Part shown: positions 48,351 through 56,497 of the stretch, piece by piece
Layout: each line of letters begins with the position of its first letter
Position numbering within the stretch: the first letter of the stretch is position 1
The notes under the pieces: generated by a model
The model's input: only the letters and a program-made list of their open reading frames with translations
Databases searched by the model: none
Told to the model about the DNA's origin: nothing
Program-made: the position numbers and the translations under genes
Assembly: GCF_013410665.1 (NCBI RefSeq)
Contig: NZ_JACCFM010000001.1
Span: 1,302,001-1,366,000 of the forward strand
Direction of reading: 5' to 3'
DNA from: Leifsonia psychrotolerans
GTDB lineage: Bacteria; Actinomycetota; Actinomycetes; Actinomycetales; Microbacteriaceae
DNA: 64,000 nucleotides

Positions 48351-49037
48351 CTAACGCGCTACGACTTCACTCTCAAGCGGAGCCGTTGGCTGAACGTTTT
48401 GTGTGGCGTGCTCCGGGAGCCTGGTCGTTGAACTCAGTCGGGTTCTGACCCCACCGCTGAGCTGAATGAGCGTCGGGACTTGGGTTCCGAGAAGTCGGTC
48501 CCACGCCTGCAGACTCATCTGAATCGTGTCGGCCGCTCGTGGAGGGGAGACACCGCGTCGCACTGCGGTTGAAATCTTCAGCACCTGTTGCCGGTGAATG
48601 CGGTATGTCGAAACAGAGGACGAGACGAATTCAGTGTTGCCGTTCAACGACTCAAGAAGCGTCTGCTGTGCCACTGCGGCGTCAATGATGACGGTGCCCC
48701 CGACCTGCTGGTGCGACGACGCACCGGAGGTGCGCCGTGCAACAAGGCTTCCGGCGTGGCCGCGACCTTGCCGAAAGATGAACAGAAGCATGAGGATGAT
48801 CACGAGCACGCACACCAGCGCAAGCGCTATCCAAATCCAGCTGTGCCCGGTGGAAGTCAGTGGCGTGGTCTCCAGCCAGTTGCTGACTGTGCGGTAGACA
48901 TCGGGTGCATTCTGCTTCCAGCCGTCACGAATGGACGTGACAGTTCCGAGCAGAATCGCCGCGATTCCGGCTGCCAGCAGAGCGAATCCGACGAGCAAGA
49001 TCAGCAAGCGATTCAAGACACGATTGGTGCTATTCAT
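48351..49037 (-). CDS. AmaP-like alkaline-shock membrane anchor protein
   Basis: A 228-residue protein with two N-terminal membrane helices (about 10-32 and 66-88), then an Asp23-like soluble domain with DAAVAQQTLLESLNGNTEFVSSSVST near 118-143. The arrangement matches AmaP, which tethers Asp23 to the membrane in staphylococci. It is the last gene of a five-gene operon joined by ATGA overlaps. Confidence 0.8.
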   Translation of the reverse strand: MNSTNRVLNRLLILLVGFALLAAGIAAILLGTVTSIRDGWKQNAPDVYRTVSNWLETTPLTSTGHSWIWIALALVCVLVIILMLLFIFRQGRGHAGSLVARRTSGASSHQQVGGTVIIDAAVAQQTLLESLNGNTEFVSSSVSTYRIHRQQVLKISTAVRRGVSPPRAADTIQMSLQAWDRLLGTQVPTLIQLSGGVRTRLSSTTRLPEHATQNVQPTAPLESEVVAR

Positions 49038-49615
49038 GCGCCGACTTTCCCTTCCGATCTAATCAGTACCGTCGCACGCATTTGAGGACGAAGACCATAC
49101 GACGCCAATTCCTCCCCAATGACGTCGTTCACGAGTGCCTCGTCAACCGGCAGGCCGGAAACCGGTGTCAGGCGAACGACGGCATGGCGGTGTGACACGC
49201 TCACGCTGACGTTGTCAGGATCGACCCCGGCAACCAGCGCGGCGCGGCGCGCCAGCGCGGACGCAACGACCTCGTTGTCGACGACCATGGCTAGACGGTC
49301 GTTGATCAGGTGATGGCGAGGGCGCCGCCCCGGCAGGAGCCCTGCCAGCACAATGATCAATCCGACGACGACCGCACTCGCACCGATCAGGATCAACACG
49401 GGCATCGGCTGATCCGGAATACCGACGATCGCCTTCGCCGCGTCTCGGGGTGCAACCAGCAACGCCCGCATACCCAATACGTTCAAGACCGACTCGGTGG
49501 CCACCCAGGCGCTGAAGATCATCACGACGACGGCGAGCAGAACAGCCAGCACGGATCGAGACGAGTGTGTCTCCCGGCGTACGATGCGCCGATAGAGTGA
49601 ACGCCGGTCTCTCAT
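49034..49615 (-). CDS. DUF6286-like membrane protein of the Asp23 operon
   Basis: A 193-residue protein with two helices (about 22-45 and 72-93) and a C-terminal domain (about 105-193) of beta-alpha type. HAVVRLTPVSGLPVDEALVNDVIGEEL is typical of the DUF6286 family found beside Asp23 proteins in actinobacteria. Both ends overlap neighbours by four bases. The function is unknown; a membrane anchor for Asp23 proteins is inferred. Confidence 0.78.
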   Translation of the reverse strand: MRDRRSLYRRIVRRETHSSRSVLAVLLAVVVMIFSAWVATESVLNVLGMRALLVAPRDAAKAIVGIPDQPMPVLILIGASAVVVGLIIVLAGLLPGRRPRHHLINDRLAMVVDNEVVASALARRAALVAGVDPDNVSVSVSHRHAVVRLTPVSGLPVDEALVNDVIGEELASYGLRPQMRATVLIRSEGKVGA

Positions 49616-49992
49616 CTCACTCGCTCCTCCCCCTCGATCCGGGCGTTGGTCACACGAATATCTACCCGGGACACACGCCGGCCGGTCAGTTGCTCGACTC
49701 GCTCCTTCGTCTGCCGTTGCGCTCGCTCACACCGCTCCAGGAGGGTTCCACCAGAGAGCTCCAGCGCTCGCGGATTCCTCTGGATAGCGGCCAAAGACAC
49801 CACCGGGATGGCGGCACGTACTGTGACCGCCAGCTTTCCGTGATCGTCGGCCAAGTCAGCGCTCACAGCCCGGCCCGCGACGTTCAGTGTCTCGGCGACC
49901 GCTGCCGCAGCCACGGCTCTGAGCGCCCGCGCCGTGATCCTGTTGCGGCCGACCAAGGTGCTGGAGCCCGCCGGCTGGTCCCGGTCTGTCAT
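49612..49992 (-). CDS. Asp23/Gls24-like protein, short form
   Basis: A 126-residue soluble protein starting MTDRDQPAGSSTLVGRNRITARALRAV. It keeps the Asp23 pattern of a helix (ALRAVAAAAVAETLNV), beta strands (KLAVTVRAAIPVV) and a final strand (VDIRVTNARIEG). Similarity to classical Asp23 is weak, so the family call rests partly on position. ATGA overlaps link it to both neighbours. Confidence 0.72.
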   Translation of the reverse strand: MTDRDQPAGSSTLVGRNRITARALRAVAAAAVAETLNVAGRAVSADLADDHGKLAVTVRAAIPVVSLAAIQRNPRALELSGGTLLERCERAQRQTKERVEQLTGRRVSRVDIRVTNARIEGEERVR

Positions 49993-50180
49993 GAGGAGGT
50001 GCGTTTCCCGCGGAACGCCGCGACAATGCCGGACAGGCTGATCTTCCCGTCCATGAGCCGGGCCACGATTGCGCCAATCACCATGGCGGCAGCGACGAAC
50101 ACGAAAGCCCAAAAGCCGAACGTGATCCAGGTCAGAGCGAGCACCGCCCCGATCGCCGCACCGACAATGGTGTGGCTCAC
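49989..50180 (-). CDS. Small DUF2273-like membrane protein
   Basis: A 63-residue protein with two hydrophobic segments (about 3-20 and 23-44) and a basic tail GIVAAFRGKRTSS. Small two-helix proteins of this type (DUF2273) accompany Asp23 in many Gram-positive bacteria. It overlaps the Asp23 genes on both sides by four bases. Confidence 0.75.
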   Translation of the reverse strand: MSHTIVGAAIGAVLALTWITFGFWAFVFVAAAMVIGAIVARLMDGKISLSGIVAAFRGKRTSS

Positions 50181-50656
50181 TGGACTCGCGCTCCCTTACC
50201 GACATTCTCGCCCGTTGATTGCGCGTCGTCATCTCCGGTGTGCACATCAGAAATAGTCACATTCACCTCAGTGACTTCCATGCCGACGAGCTCCTGAATG
50301 ACCTGGTAGACCGCAGCACGCACATCGTCGGCGACCTTTTGCAGTGGGACCGGGTAGTCAGCGACGATTGTCAGGTCGGCCGCGACCTGGGTTTCGCCCA
50401 CCTCGACACGGACACCCTGTCCGTGATCGGTATTACCGATCACATCACGCACGGCACCGAGCATCCGTTCGGCGCCCCCACCCAGTGCGTAGACGCCCGG
50501 AACTTCGCGCGCGGCGATGCTCGCAACCTTGGCGATCACACCATCAGCGATCACTGTCTTCCCGCTCGAACTCATCCCCGTTGCCGCAGGGATGCGCGCC
50601 GCGCCCGGCTGGACCGTTTGGCCAGACGTGCTCTGATTGAGATTCTCGTTTGCCAT
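50177..50656 (-). CDS. Asp23/Gls24 family envelope stress protein
   Basis: A 159-residue Asp23 protein: disordered start (MANENLNQSTSGQTVQPG), then SSSGKTVIADGVIAKVASIAAREVPGVYALG (about 37-67). QVAADLTIVADYPVPLQKVADDVRAAVYQVIQELVGMEVTEVNVTISDVH follows. Members localise under the membrane and respond to cell-wall stress. AAGGAG precedes the ATG at 50656. It is the first gene of the operon and diverges from the ECF sigma gene 254 bases away. Confidence 0.9.
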   Translation of the reverse strand: MANENLNQSTSGQTVQPGAARIPAATGMSSSGKTVIADGVIAKVASIAAREVPGVYALGGGAERMLGAVRDVIGNTDHGQGVRVEVGETQVAADLTIVADYPVPLQKVADDVRAAVYQVIQELVGMEVTEVNVTISDVHTGDDDAQSTGENVGKGARVQ

Positions 50657-50724
50657 CTGACTGCTCCTTGATTTCACAGCGCATGCATCGGCTGATCCGT
50701 GCGCACAAATTTTCGATCTACCCA

Positions 50725-50878
50725 TAAGACGTGTGACCGACGCGAAACGTCACGTCCGCGACAACAAAAGATGCTGTCGGTCCGAGCGGACAGCGCCCAC
50801 GCGGTCACACCGTCACCGCGGGTGGGCATGGGCTTGTGCAGTTGTAGATGTGCAGGTAAGACGTAAGCGAAAGCGTCA
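50725..50878. promoter_or_regulatory. Asp23-ECF sigma intergenic region with a duplicated motif
   Basis: Between the divergent operons the sequence TAAGACGT-N9-GCGAAACGTCA (50725-50752) recurs as TAAGACGT-N2-GCGAAAGCGTCA (50857-50878) in the same orientation. Each copy lies on the side of one operon. CGTC/GACG cores are common in ECF promoters, so autoregulation by the adjacent sigma factor is possible, but the spacing differs and promoter identity is unproven. Confidence 0.4.
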
Positions 50879-50910
50879 TGTTCTGAATCACACAACTGTC
50901 GGCGGTGAAA

Positions 50911-51477
50911 ATGGGTGAAGGCAGCGGCGGATTGGCCCTCACTCGCGTGGCCGACAACGTCCTGGTTTCCCGCACAATCGACGGGGACAAGCAGGCGTTC
51001 GAGGTGCTGATTCGGCGACACGCGCCGGGCATGCGTGCTTATGCACAGCGCCTCCTCAACTCCTCCAACGAAGCCGACGACGTCGTGCAGGAAACGTTCA
51101 TCACCGCGTGGGAACAGTTGGAAAGCCTCAGCGACTATTCGGCCGCGCGTGCCTGGCTGATGCGGGTCGTCAGCCGCAAGAGCTTCGATGTGATCCGCGC
51201 GCGCAAACCGACTGCCACGCTGACCGCCGAGGCATTTTCATCTCCCGCAGCCCAGCAAACAGAGCACATTGTTGAGATCCGTTCGGCAGTCGAGGACCTT
51301 TCTTCCGCGTTGCTTCAGCTTCCCACGGCGCAACGCGAGTGCTGGTTGCTGTATGAGGTGGGCGGATGCTCCTACGATGAGATCGCCGAGCAACTGGGCA
51401 TCTCGCATCCAGCCGTGCGTGGCACACTGGCCCGAGCCAGAGCAACGCTGATTCGGACGATGGAGGGCTGGAGATGA
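50911..51477 (+). CDS. ECF-type RNA polymerase sigma factor
   Basis: A 188-residue sigma-70 family factor with region 2 (FEVLIRRHAPGMRAYAQRLLNSSNEADDVVQETFITAWEQL, about 32-72) and region 4 with the helix-turn-helix CSYDEIAEQLGISHPAVRGTLARARATL (about 155-182). The start may be the ATG at 50911 or the GTG two codons earlier; neither has a strong ribosome site. It overlaps the next gene by four bases (ATGA), the usual place for an anti-sigma factor. Confidence 0.9.
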   Translation: MGEGSGGLALTRVADNVLVSRTIDGDKQAFEVLIRRHAPGMRAYAQRLLNSSNEADDVVQETFITAWEQLESLSDYSAARAWLMRVVSRKSFDVIRARKPTATLTAEAFSSPAAQQTEHIVEIRSAVEDLSSALLQLPTAQRECWLLYEVGGCSYDEIAEQLGISHPAVRGTLARARATLIRTMEGWR

Positions 51478-52073
51478 GCGAACCCAGCGGCCCCCCACGC
51501 GACGAGTACCCGGTGGAACAGCTCACCGATTACCTCGACCGGGGACGCACCCCGCGCGATCCGCAGATTGAAAGCTCCCCCCAAGCCCAAATGGTGTTAG
51601 CCGCGCTTGCCCGACTGCGCAGCCTCTCCGTGCCGCTGATCGAACGTGATGGCGAGCTTTCCGCACCACTGGCTCAGGGGTGGATCGCGACGATCCTCTC
51701 GCGCCTCGGCACCGAATCCAGGGCCGGCCGAATGATCCCCCTGTCTCACCCCGACCCGGCCGTTCAACTTCACGTGACTGAAGGAGCCGTGCGTGGGCTC
51801 CTGCGCACGGTTGGGGACGCGGTGCCGGGAGTTCTCATGATCAGCTGCTCGCTTGCCGGCGAGGTCACGGTTCCCGGCGCACTGGTGACTGTGAATGTGG
51901 CGGTGAGCGTCTACTGGCGCGAATCCATTCCCTCACTCATTCACCTTCTTCGAGATGCCCTCTCTCGGTCGCTCGTCGACCACACCGAATTGCACGTTGC
52001 AGCCATCAACATCACTGTCGCCGACGCCCATGCGATCGACGTACATTCGAGAGAGGCCCGGCTCGATGGTTGA
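51474..52073 (+). CDS. Asp23-related protein in anti-sigma position
   Basis: A 199-residue soluble protein. Residues 1-90 resemble a small helical regulator (EQLTDYLDRGRTPRDPQIESSPQAQ, ALARLRSLSVPLI). Residues 95-195 show an Asp23-like beta/alpha pattern (VRGLLRTVGDAVPGVLMISCSLAG, VTVNVAVSVYW, INITVADAHAID). There is no zinc motif or membrane helix. Translation is coupled to the sigma gene, so control of sigma by an Asp23-type domain is inferred, not shown. Confidence 0.65.
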   Translation: MSEPSGPPRDEYPVEQLTDYLDRGRTPRDPQIESSPQAQMVLAALARLRSLSVPLIERDGELSAPLAQGWIATILSRLGTESRAGRMIPLSHPDPAVQLHVTEGAVRGLLRTVGDAVPGVLMISCSLAGEVTVPGALVTVNVAVSVYWRESIPSLIHLLRDALSRSLVDHTELHVAAINITVADAHAIDVHSREARLDG

Positions 52074-52398
52074 CGCGACAACACTCCCATCCCGGCTCAC
52101 CGCCGCCATCGAACGGATCCCCGGCGTCGTAGGGGTGTACCCAAGCGAGGGTGCCACCGACACCGCGGCCAGAAAGATCCGCTCGGGGCTCGGAGCACGC
52201 TCCGTACCGCCCGCACACGTCTCGGTCCGGCTAGAAGACAACAACCTCGCGATCCACGCCAATGTTGCCGTTAGCGCCCAGATCCCCACGCCCCTCACCA
52301 CAACGCTCGTCGTCGCGGCGATTCGGGAGCTTCTCCGCGGTGCTGTCGGCACGACCGTTCACACGACAATCACGCTCACGGTGAACCGCATCGCCTGA
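52066..52398 (+). CDS. Small Asp23-associated protein
   Basis: A 110-residue protein starting MVDATTLPSRLTAAIERIPGVVGVYPSEG, with strand-helix pattern (HVSVRLEDNNLAIHANVAVSAQ, TTTLVVAAIRELLRGAVG, TITLTVNRIA) like a stripped Asp23 fold. It overlaps the preceding gene by eight bases and ends the sigma operon. No specific function is recognised. Confidence 0.65.
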   Translation: MVDATTLPSRLTAAIERIPGVVGVYPSEGATDTAARKIRSGLGARSVPPAHVSVRLEDNNLAIHANVAVSAQIPTPLTTTLVVAAIRELLRGAVGTTVHTTITLTVNRIA

Positions 52399-52453: not shown

Positions 52454-52987
52454 TCACGATTCCGGTGGATACCAGACACGCGTTCCCGCCACCTGTGCGA
52501 AGCGGGTCATCGAGTGCGGCCGAGTGGATGTCGCGCTCATAATGTCGTCGACCCTGATCTGTCGGGCAAGCAAAGCATCGCCAATCAGAGACCGATGGCA
52601 ACGCCATGGAACGGCTTCAGCGCACATGATGGCCACCGTTTGCTCACGAGCCAAGGAAATGAGCTCGTCGATACCCTCAGCGAAGTCGGTCGTCTGCATG
52701 TAGTCGGCGTAGCTGCTGAAGCTCTTGTTTCGCCACGCTCCGTTGATGGTCGCCTGGGCCACGGGCGTGTGCCGCAACCCACCCAATTTCGGAAGCCGCC
52801 CATAGTCGATGCCTGCGTTCGGCATGCTTCGGGCGAGTTCGTGCTCACCGAACTGTGGATTGTGGCGGGATCCTGGCACACTTCGCACATCGATCAGCCG
52901 CTGAACCGCGTTGTTCTCGAGCATCAGAATGAACTCGTCGAGCGGATGCGTCGAATGGCCGATCGTAAACACCTTCGTTGGGCCCAT
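52454..52987 (-). CDS. DUF488 family protein
   Basis: A 177-residue protein with the DUF488 signature: VFTIGHSTHPLDEFI (about 5-19), LIDVRSVPGSRHNPQF (about 31-46) and the cysteine motif CAEAVPWRCHRSLIGDAL (about 122-139). The family is widespread and of unknown biochemical role. It is convergent with the Asp23-related operon and divergent from the cytochrome b module. Confidence 0.88.
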   Translation of the reverse strand: MGPTKVFTIGHSTHPLDEFILMLENNAVQRLIDVRSVPGSRHNPQFGEHELARSMPNAGIDYGRLPKLGGLRHTPVAQATINGAWRNKSFSSYADYMQTTDFAEGIDELISLAREQTVAIMCAEAVPWRCHRSLIGDALLARQIRVDDIMSATSTRPHSMTRFAQVAGTRVWYPPES

Positions 52988-53102
52988 CTCCCCATTGTGG
53001 CTCCGGCGGTGCCGCTGCCCCAAGTCGGGACCAAGGTCCCTACCTACTCAGGCGAGCAGCGAGCAAGCTCGTGAGTGAACCACCGAAACTCTGGAGGATT
53101 CC

Positions 53103-53234
53103 ATGGGCGGCATCTATTTGAGTTGGGGCATATTCGATATTCAGCTGGGAAACCTGATCATCATCCTCGTCATGCTGGCTCTGTTTGTCCTTGCCCTTGT
53201 CGTTCCATTCCCCGGTACCAGGAGAAGGAAATGA
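53103..53234 (+). CDS. Single-span small membrane protein of the cytochrome b module
   Basis: A 43-residue peptide: MGGIYLSWGIFDIQLGN, one strongly hydrophobic helix (about 18-36) and a basic end PGTRRRK. GGAGGA stands four bases upstream and the stop overlaps the cytochrome b start (ATGA), strong signs of a real gene. Small single-helix subunits are common in cytochrome complexes, so a structural subunit is inferred. Confidence 0.75.
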   Translation: MGGIYLSWGIFDIQLGNLIIILVMLALFVLALVVPFPGTRRRK

Positions 53235-53968
53235 GCGTCGAGACACCGGCGCAAACGGCGGGGACTGACGGCGATGCCGAAGTCGATCGGTCGTGGACGG
53301 GGCGCTCCCGCCGCTGGCTCCTGAAGAAGCTTCCGCCCGACAAGCTGCTGCCGAACACCCAGCCGAGCTACGTCGCCTCCTGGATCTACGTCTTCGGCAT
53401 GGGTGCCTTGGCCGCACTGATCTTCATCATCGCATCCGGCGTCGTTCTCAGTTTGAACGGACCGATGTGGTACCACCTCTCGGCGTTCGGACACTTTGTC
53501 AACAGCGTGCACCTCTGGAGCGTCGAGCTGTTCTTCGTCTTCATGGTCGTACATCTCTGGGGCAAATTTTGGATGGCTGCCTGGCGTGGACATCGAGCCC
53601 TCACCTGGATCACGGGCGTGTTTTCTTTTGCTGTATCGATTGTTGCCGCGTTCACCGGGTATCTGGTTCAAACCAATTTCGACGCGCAGTGGATCGCTTT
53701 CGAGGCAAAGGATGCCCTCAATGCGACGGGCATCGGCGCGTGGTTCAACGTGGCGAATCTCGGCCAGATGCTCATGTGGCACATCACGCTCCTCCCCCTC
53801 GCGGTCATCGTCATCGTGGCGATGCACGTCATCCTCGTGCGGATGCACGGGGTCGTGCCCCCGCTCGAGGCCGACGAGAGCGATGCACAGCTGCGCGATG
53901 CAGAACTGGGCGACGCACTCCCGCGAGCGGAGGCGAGTTCACATCATGTTGAACCAGAATCACGATGA
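53231..53968 (+). CDS. Cytochrome b N-terminal (b6-like) protein
   Basis: A 245-residue di-haem cytochrome b of the short, b6-like type with four helices. Haem ligands are seen as H94 and H108 in helix B (spacing X13) and H184 and H199 in helix D (spacing X14, as in cytochrome b6; bc1 has X13). The quinone-site PEWY motif belongs to the missing C-terminal half. The ATG at 53231 overlaps the small membrane gene. No Rieske protein, cytochrome c or oxidase gene is nearby, so the electron partner is unknown. Confidence 0.88.
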   Translation: MSVETPAQTAGTDGDAEVDRSWTGRSRRWLLKKLPPDKLLPNTQPSYVASWIYVFGMGALAALIFIIASGVVLSLNGPMWYHLSAFGHFVNSVHLWSVELFFVFMVVHLWGKFWMAAWRGHRALTWITGVFSFAVSIVAAFTGYLVQTNFDAQWIAFEAKDALNATGIGAWFNVANLGQMLMWHITLLPLAVIVIVAMHVILVRMHGVVPPLEADESDAQLRDAELGDALPRAEASSHHVEPESR

Positions 53969-54917
53969 ACCCAACGCACGCACGGATGTGGCCCGCCGCC
54001 GACACGCTCTCGCTGCGAGACCCTGGCGCGGGGCGGAACGTGAGTACGACCTCTTCAAGGAACTGTCGATCGGCGTCATCGTCGTGGGCGTGCTTGCCGT
54101 CGGGCTGGCCGCGATTGCCAGTTCGCCGGATGAACCCAGCATCACACTGCAGTCGTGGTCGATCGCCGCACCGAATGATTTCGTGGCGACGGCTGCGGCT
54201 GAACTCGCCGGCACCTCCGACACTGCCTCGTATGGTCCGCCCTACTCCGCGACGACCGGCGCCACCCAGACGCTCGGTCCGATAGATCTGCAGAGCCTCT
54301 CCGGCATCCGTCTGCCCGTCGACACCGCGACGGACTTTGTGACGACGCCGCTGACGGTTCTCCAGGCTGGGGCTGTTGCACGCGCCGTCTGGAACAGCGC
54401 CCCCGCCGCGACCAGGGAGTCGTGGGCGATGGCCTATTCCGACGCGTTGGCGAAGGCGCCGAACAACGATCCCGGACAGATTCAGGCTGGCAACTACGGA
54501 CCCGTGCCGAGCCTCACGAACAGCCTTCTGAAGGTCGCCCGTGCCGGCGCCCTCGACGGAGCCATCCAGTCTGAGGGCGGATTCTTCAACACCGACTACA
54601 CGCGCAGCATTCTCTTCCTGGGCGATGGCGCGTATTTTCCGGGACTCGCCGACAGCATGCATCTCACGGGTGACCAGTGGGGAGTGATGAATGAGACCGG
54701 CAACTATCCGGGCCAATCCTGGCTCTGGCTTTTCTCGTTCTGGTACCAGGTTCCCTTAATCGGCAATTTGGCGAACGCGGACCTCATGGTCGTTCTCATC
54801 ATGCTGGTTCTCACGGTGATTCTCGCGCTCATCCCGTTCATTCCCGGATTGCGCTCGGTGCCGCGCTGGATCCCGATCCATCGGCTCATCTGGCGCGACT
54901 ATTACCGGCGGCGCTAG
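53946..54917 (+). CDS. Membrane-anchored partner protein of the cytochrome b module
   Basis: A 323-residue protein of unrecognised family. A basic N-terminus (1-35) leads to one helix (about 40-60), a large extracytoplasmic region (about 60-270), a second helix (about 278-302) and a basic end RLIWRDYYRRR. It contains no cysteine, so c-type haem and Rieske clusters are excluded. It overlaps cytochrome b by 23 bases, indicating coupled synthesis. It could replace subunit IV or form a periplasmic cap; neither is shown. Confidence 0.75.
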   Translation: MLNQNHDEPNARTDVARRRHALAARPWRGAEREYDLFKELSIGVIVVGVLAVGLAAIASSPDEPSITLQSWSIAAPNDFVATAAAELAGTSDTASYGPPYSATTGATQTLGPIDLQSLSGIRLPVDTATDFVTTPLTVLQAGAVARAVWNSAPAATRESWAMAYSDALAKAPNNDPGQIQAGNYGPVPSLTNSLLKVARAGALDGAIQSEGGFFNTDYTRSILFLGDGAYFPGLADSMHLTGDQWGVMNETGNYPGQSWLWLFSFWYQVPLIGNLANADLMVVLIMLVLTVILALIPFIPGLRSVPRWIPIHRLIWRDYYRRR

Positions 54918-55013: not shown

Positions 55014-55691
55014 TTAGTCAAGGGTGCGATTCAACGCATCCGCTCGCCTCGATCGTGCCCGCCGACGCACGAGCAGGCTGCGCACGAGCACGGGAACCGT
55101 CGAGAGCACAACGATGCCGACCAGGATCAGGTCGATGTACTGTGCCGTGAACTGGGCGACCCCAGGGATATGACCGAGGCCGAAGCCGAGCAGAATGACC
55201 GAACCGGCCCATCCGACGGCACCGATCACGTTGAAGATGATAAATGAGCGGTAGCGCATCGAACCAACGCCCGCGATGACCGGTGCGAAGGTGCGAACGA
55301 CCGGCACGAAGCGGGCGATCGTGACCGTCATGGATCCGAACCGCTCGAAGAAGGATTCGGTCTGTGCGACACTGGCCCGGCTGAACAGCCCGGATTCCTT
55401 GCGGTTGAAGACTGCCGTCCCGGCCCGGCGGCCGATCAGATAGCCCACCTGATCACCGAGGATTGCCGCGACACTCACGGCAGCAACCACCACCCCGAGC
55501 GGGGCGTGCAGCGCGCCGGTGAGGGTGAGCACGCCGGTGAAGAAGAGCAGGGTGTCACCGGGCAGAAAGAACCCGACGAGCAGTGCAGTCTCGGCGAACA
55601 CGATCAGACAGACAACGGCCAAGCCCCAGACGCCCGCGCTGCCGATCAGCGCTTGCGGGTCGAGAATGCCACTGCTCAGCCCGCTGCTCAT
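55014..55691 (-). CDS. DedA family membrane protein
   Basis: A 225-residue DedA/VTT protein with the motifs GFFLPGDTLLFFTGVL, ILGDQVGYLIGRRAG, FFERFGSMTVTIARFVPVVRTFAPVIAGVGSMRYRSFIIFNVIGAVGW. DedA proteins move lipids such as undecaprenyl phosphate or phosphatidylethanolamine across the membrane. The ATG at 55691 overlaps the preceding stop (ATGA) and is preferred to an ATG six codons earlier. Confidence 0.9.
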   Translation of the reverse strand: MSSGLSSGILDPQALIGSAGVWGLAVVCLIVFAETALLVGFFLPGDTLLFFTGVLTLTGALHAPLGVVVAAVSVAAILGDQVGYLIGRRAGTAVFNRKESGLFSRASVAQTESFFERFGSMTVTIARFVPVVRTFAPVIAGVGSMRYRSFIIFNVIGAVGWAGSVILLGFGLGHIPGVAQFTAQYIDLILVGIVVLSTVPVLVRSLLVRRRARSRRADALNRTLD

Positions 55692-56497
55692 CGGCGATCC
55701 GCCTGCCATGAGACCAACTCCTTCGATTGGGTGACGGTCACAGAGATGATCAGGCCAAGGATCGCGACGAGGAACATGGCACTGGTCCCGATGGTTCCGA
55801 GGCCCAGTCCACCGTCCGCCAGCGGCTGCGAGAGCAAGTCACCGAGTGAAGCACCGAGCGGTCGGGTCAAAATGTATGCCAGCCAGAACGCGAAGATCGC
55901 GTTCAACTTTGCGAACCGGTAGGCGCAGCCGACCAGGGCAATTCCGACGGCAAAGAGCAGCGCTGAGACGAAGTAGCCGAGGTTGAGGCCTTCGGCAATC
56001 AGGTCGCCGGCCGCGGTCCCGAGTGCGAAGGTAAAGAGAATCGCGAGCCAGTAAAACCCTTCACGGCGCCGCGTCGTGATCGAGTGGATAGACAGGCTGC
56101 GTTCGCTGGCGTACCAGACGGCGAAAACGACGGCGAGTGCGATGGCGAAGACGATGGTTGTCGTTACGAGCGGGATGCCGAAGTTGTCGGTGAGATTGTC
56201 AGTGATCAGTGTGCCGACAATGCTGATCAGGACGACGGCCAGCCAGTAGATTCCAGGCACGTAGCGGATCGAGCGGAACTGGAGAACGAGCACGATTGCG
56301 AGCAATGCTCCCATCACGATGGTGGTGTTAGTCAGGCCAAGATTCAGGTTCGTCGCCAGAAGGTCGGCAAACGTTTCGCCGACCGTGGTGGCGAGGATCT
56401 TGATGGTCCAAAAGATGGCAGTGGGCTCAGGAACCTTGCTCCGGCCGGTGGAAACGCGTCGGTCGACACGTGTCGCCGTGAGATCTGACATGGGCAT
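55688..56497 (-). CDS. COG4705-like membrane protein with internal repeats
   Basis: A 269-residue protein with about eight helices. Four related segments recur: GETFADLLATNLNLG, GTLITDNLTDNFGIP, GTAAGDLIAEGLNLG and GASLGDLLSQPLADG, each a small residue followed by an Asp in a helix. The pattern resembles the COG4705 membrane-anchored proteins, of unknown function. It is the first gene of a pair with dedA. Confidence 0.78.
   Translation of the reverse strand: MPMSDLTATRVDRRVSTGRSKVPEPTAIFWTIKILATTVGETFADLLATNLNLGLTNTTIVMGALLAIVLVLQFRSIRYVPGIYWLAVVLISIVGTLITDNLTDNFGIPLVTTTIVFAIALAVVFAVWYASERSLSIHSITTRRREGFYWLAILFTFALGTAAGDLIAEGLNLGYFVSALLFAVGIALVGCAYRFAKLNAIFAFWLAYILTRPLGASLGDLLSQPLADGGLGLGTIGTSAMFLVAILGLIISVTVTQSKELVSWQADRR

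Follow-up and report, generated by a model that had tools for sequence, protein, structure and literature searches.

What does a dihaem cytochrome b do when neither a Rieske protein nor a cytochrome c is encoded beside it? The question is raised by a module of three overlapping genes in a 64,000-nucleotide stretch of Leifsonia psychrotolerans DNA (bases 1302001-1366000 of one 3.82-Mb contig), hereafter the window. Gene 1 (53103-53234, + strand) encodes a 43-amino-acid single-helix subunit, gene 2 (53231-53968, +) a 245-amino-acid b6-type dihaem cytochrome b with four helices, and gene 3 (53946-54917, +) a 323-amino-acid subunit in which two membrane helices flank a large outer domain. The junction of genes 1 and 2 is an ATGA overlap, genes 2 and 3 overlap by 23 nt, and none of the three products contains a cysteine. 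As the best explanation overall we favor, with moderate confidence, a Rieske-free, capped dihaem cytochrome b complex that would be induced by hypoxia and would take part in menaquinol redox chemistry. A first-pass annotation had already described three overlapping genes for a 43-residue helix, a b6-type cytochrome b (X13 and X14 histidine spacing) and a cysteine-free two-helix protein, all of which we confirmed. It had also put the outer domain at roughly 210 residues; the large outer part stood, and its predicted length became ~219 residues, between helices predicted at 36-58 and 278-298.

The three proteins very probably form one complex, since the second and third, or all three, are naturally fused in other genomes, which backs what had been proposed from the gene overlaps. 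The fusion was first noticed in genome G080 and then searched for in 79 genomes of another actinobacterial order, where cytochrome b and third protein form one uninterrupted open reading frame (ORF) in six (G080, G323, G322, G356, G338 and G302) and occur as separate matches in 13 others. Gene 1 is fused as well, in front of the cytochrome b, in four of the six fusion ORFs (L119-L122). A database search with the 611-amino-acid triple fusion yielded 3277 proteins at E<=1e-30; the 120 matches listed span 553-695 amino acids with 89-100% coverage, and several of those listed are labelled Acidimicrobiales. An assembly error is an unlikely source of the fusion because it recurs in so many clusters. 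Beyond its triple fusion, G322 has a second, separate match to cytochrome b and third protein on contig C52.

To follow the module across genomes, we retained the best 80 of the 301 stretches with a gene 3 relative in a collection of named genomes. These 80 come largely from Microbacteriaceae and Micrococcaceae, but also from Streptomyces, Kitasatospora, Amycolatopsis, Pedococcus and metagenome-assembled genomes labelled Chloroflexi and Acidobacteria (labels unconfirmed). The order of genes 1, 2 and 3 is conserved, with gene 1 in place in 74 of 81 loci (the best 80 and the window). The module is patchily distributed, occurring in 10 of 296 genomes across the phylum and in 4 of 119 within the order, both counts including our genome. 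At E<=0.001, 4040 of 7997 scored proteins were homologues of gene 3; for gene 2 the count was 7604 of 8000, other cytochromes b perhaps among them. One genome (G094) has two module copies (L109 and L110), one of them beside P-type ATPase-like ORFs.

The haem ligands of gene 2 are H94-X13-H108 and H184-X14-H199. We found the gene in 90 of 93 loci scanned (including a few repeats of the window's own or another locus), and each of the four haem histidines is kept in at least 97% of these 90 copies. Gene 2 matches PF13631 (8.2e-12), one of five Pfam families matched at E<=1, as well as cytochrome b6 in the PDB (6rqf_I, 2.6e-9). It thus resembles the cytochrome b of bc1 and b6f complexes (PF13631, PF00033), a four-helix dihaem protein with the same X13/X14 spacing, but those complexes have Rieske and cytochrome c/f subunits, genes for which do not lie alongside the module, and its third subunit is not recognised as a subunit IV. 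The haem cn linkage of b6f requires a cysteine, so the module, having none, would lack a linkage of that type. Its top NCBIfam match is NF040969 (ExtP, the b-type cytochrome of the Geobacter ext cluster; 8.9e-16), at 58.3 bits and therefore below the curated cut-off of 290. In that cluster, as described in PMC5877670, the companions of ExtP include a Rieske protein (ExtO), the membrane protein ExtQ and several multihaem cytochromes c, none of which the module has. We therefore place the module with the cytochromes b in kind and not in complex III as defined, because it encodes neither of two defining features, a Rieske protein and a cytochrome c1/cc/f.

At E<=1, the third protein matched nothing in Pfam or NCBIfam, and gene 1 nothing in Pfam. 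Our literature searches turned up no description of the module, in keeping with the suggestion of the first-pass annotation that the complex is undescribed. Among 61 aligned third proteins, none has a cysteine in residues 60-277, which agrees with the earlier claim that the protein cannot bind c-type haem or an iron-sulfur cluster through cysteine, and none matches PF00032 at E<=5. The outer domain is conserved across these 61 homologues, with just one well-conserved histidine (57/61). Such a domain might bind a signal while the haems report redox state, which would make the complex a sensor or assembly factor instead of an enzyme. We consider this very unlikely: it would account for a conserved outer domain with no conserved cysteine and a single such histidine, but there is no cytoplasmic output domain, no regulator constantly adjoins the module (DosR lies near 7 of 80), and both haem pairs are retained at the rate given above.

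The fold of the complex and the placement of its parts are predicted. Gene 3 alone was modeled with AlphaFold2 at a pLDDT of 83.5. In the predicted structure of the fusion, the third-protein helices lie at the position of cytochrome b helices E/F, as in subunit IV, the model aligning onto cytochrome b helices A to about F (up to residue 317; helices named by boundaries that we assumed), and the gene 3 outer domain would occupy the outside face. We regard a subunit-IV-like placement of these helices as an even call. Two points argue against it: in a profile comparison of gene 3 with subunit IV the best score was 41.4% as against 39.6% for the reversed control, and AlphaFold2 may have set the helices from its knowledge of cytochrome b.

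To look for partner genes, we surveyed 96 loci (the 80 named ones, the window and 15 further stretches) by a motif scan and by phmmer, with QcrA and QcrC of this genome as queries. A Rieske ORF was present in a single locus (L064:11690-13276, - strand, 528 amino acids), downstream of gene 3 and on the opposite strand; a QcrC relative was found in none of the 96 at E<=1e-3, cytochrome f not having been searched for separately. The reported absence of the standard bc1/b6f partners holds for the locus but not for the cell, since a complete qcrC-qcrA-qcrB set lies elsewhere in the genome (C1:1124000-1138000; QcrA matches PF19297 and PF00355, and QcrC has two CXXCH motifs). In that region, the stretch from the cytochrome oxidase genes to qcrB contains two ORFs (L152:2925-4705, i.e., C1:1126924-1128704) that resemble by eye an IS21-type transposase and its helper. 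Each of the 25 module-bearing genomes tested has another, stronger PF13631 match with a Rieske match no more than ~1.2 kb away from it, so in all of them the module supplements another cytochrome b.

Since every tested module genome has such a cytochrome b-Rieske pair, shared partners would always be available, and the module could be an alternative cytochrome b that in hypoxia borrows the QcrA (Rieske) and QcrC of the housekeeping complex for a modified Q cycle. We consider this unlikely, as the partner genes do not travel with the module and the outer domain would fill the outside face in the predicted model. In addition, the conserved gene 3 loop, QWGxMNETxxxPGQxW, contains PGQxW and lacks the glutamate of the PEWY-type motif. 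That motif is characteristic of subunit IV and of the C-terminal half of cytochrome b.

The gene set, the haem ligands, the fusions, the absence of cysteines and partner genes and the upstream box described below are read from sequence, and we find a two-haem wire with an inside quinone site, a capped Rieske-free outer end and hypoxia induction to be the most economical account. The small helix, the dihaem cytochrome b and the third subunit would assemble into one membrane complex, in which the gene 3 helices would pack on the cytochrome b and the outer domain would cap the outside face, where the Rieske protein and cytochrome c1/f would otherwise sit. Haems bH and bL would form a wire across the membrane. 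We infer a Qi-like site on the inside face near bH, where electrons would pass to or from menaquinol/menaquinone, and a cap that closes the outside end at bL; with that end closed, we propose that there would be no Q-cycle bifurcation to a Rieske center. Instead, bL may give or take single electrons, with a small molecule or a quinone under the QWGxMNETxxxPGQxW loop as candidate partner. When hypoxia leaves the menaquinone pool over-reduced, the complex would relieve or adjust it. As to direction, electron flow from quinol outwards is a tentative suggestion.

Electrons could also run from the outside inwards, as in a superoxide oxidase, with an outer reductant such as superoxide reducing bL and menaquinone being reduced at bH. 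A minimal four-helix dihaem protein does so in the case described in PMC11869295 (CybB, b561 family), which like the module would link an outer reactant to quinone, and a cysteine-free design with no other cofactor would suit such a reaction. CybB differs from the module in its Pfam family, and b561 is not among the five families matched by gene 2 at E<=1. We know of no capping subunit on CybB. The Pfam matches thus point to a different protein family, and a hypoxia-type box is not an obvious fit for superoxide, which makes this direction and role improbable in our judgment.

Hypoxia control of the module was suggested by a DosR/DevR-type palindrome, GGGACCAAGGTCCC (53027-53040), first spotted by eye against what we took to be the DosR consensus. 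Located 62 nt before gene 1, it is the lone match to GGGACYNNRGTCCC in the 3.82-Mb genome; the reversed pattern, run as a control, gave 0. With one mismatch allowed, the window holds 3 matches (0.91 expected). We then scored the upstream regions of 74 modules with a graded box score, using shuffles and 809 other upstream regions from the same loci as controls. Scores of at least 18 were reached by 34 of 74 (3.65 expected from shuffles and 4.94 from other upstreams), of at least 19 by 23 (0.9 and 2.0) and of at least 20 by 16 (0.15 and 0.46). Several of the top-scoring control regions precede kinase, PNPOx, phosphoketolase, acetate kinase and P-type ATPase genes. The genome's DosR-like regulator is 58% identical to the L078 protein (next paralogue, 38%), whose closest PDB match is DevR (3c3w, 9.3e-65), followed by VraR (6.1e-43), and its gene is adjoined by a GAF-GAF-HisKA_3 kinase, two Usp and a PNPOx protein. 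In our scheme, the DosR-type regulator would raise transcription once its GAF-domain kinase signals low oxygen.

We further surveyed neighbors with nine marker profiles in the 80 loci, up to 10 kb on each side; the profiles were seeded from the same loci, and the counts are for these loci. Modules lie near DosR (7), a GAF kinase (8), Usp (21), PNPOx (17), phosphoketolase (11), acetate kinase (5), PPDK (5), a P-type ATPase (15) or a Zn alcohol dehydrogenase (7), and at least one dormancy-type marker was present near 28 of 80. In L148, the gene order is DosR, Usp, PNPOx, kinase, a 199-amino-acid protein (L148:7642-8241) without a Pfam match, and the triple fusion; in L147 the triple fusion adjoins narGHJI (NarI and NarG confirmed by Pfam). 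A protein in L064 (near 4344, - strand), preceded by a high-scoring box, looks by eye like the 199-amino-acid one, both being in DosRS clusters with the module. Of the kinds of gene listed for OsdR in PMC5069765, Usp, PPDK, Zn alcohol dehydrogenase, PNPOx and nitrate reductase recur near relatives' modules; that paper gives AGGGCCGATCGGCCCT as the OsdR consensus and AGGGACCTTCGGCCCC among its sites, and nowhere in its main text does the word "cytochrome" appear. We found no literature report of the module as a member of the DosR/OsdR regulon.

Several observations weigh against this regulation. Across the genome, a looser box pattern shows no enrichment (8 matches, 27 for the control), the DosRS-like genes of this genome have weak boxes beside them, 40 of 74 modules have no box scoring 18 or more, and 52 of 80 have none of the nine markers nearby. 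Moreover, the graded score was devised after the boxes had been viewed, and the enrichment ratios overstate the evidence because related strains are not independent. Nevertheless, given the lone upstream box, the boxes before relatives' modules, the DosRS-like pair, which like the box is shared with the DosR/DevR/OsdR regulon, and the dormancy-type neighbors, we consider the module a probable DosR (hypoxia) target. This likely control is an addition to the first-pass annotation.

Around the module in the window, a GGAGG at 53093-53097 (+), read off the sequence, is the likely ribosome-binding site of gene 1. A DUF488 gene (52454-53023, -; PF04343, 3.3e-29) is divergent from the module, and both could be controlled from the DosR-type box because it lies between them; no match to the DUF488 gene turned up beside the module in any of 95 other loci. 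Farther upstream (48351-52398) are an Asp23 protein (PF03780, 3.6e-25), DUF6286, a second weak Asp23 match and an ECF sigma factor. The first-pass annotation had set the module beside this envelope-stress locus. The adjacency is real but a link between the two was not supported: at E<=1e-5 none of the 95 other loci matched the Asp23 protein, and one matched the sigma factor. The locus is an incidental neighbor. A VTT-domain (DedA-like) gene and one for a protein with four DUF347 repeats lie downstream of the module (55014-56497, -).

Cytochrome b ranks with the oldest proteins of respiration, and accounts of it usually include its Rieske and cytochrome c partners. If our reading is true, a conserved, often fused, Rieske-free version would put the dihaem wire to a further use. 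The single-chain fusions lend themselves well to structural and spectroscopic work. The module may, tentatively, define a distinct class of quinone-linked respiratory complex, widespread in Actinomycetota, in which a cofactor-free cap (an expanded, Qo-dead subunit IV) would replace the Qo side and the Rieske/cytochrome c chain. Induced in hypoxia, such a complex would serve the menaquinone pool as a transmembrane electron valve. It would thereby add a respiratory component to the DosR-type response of soil actinobacteria.
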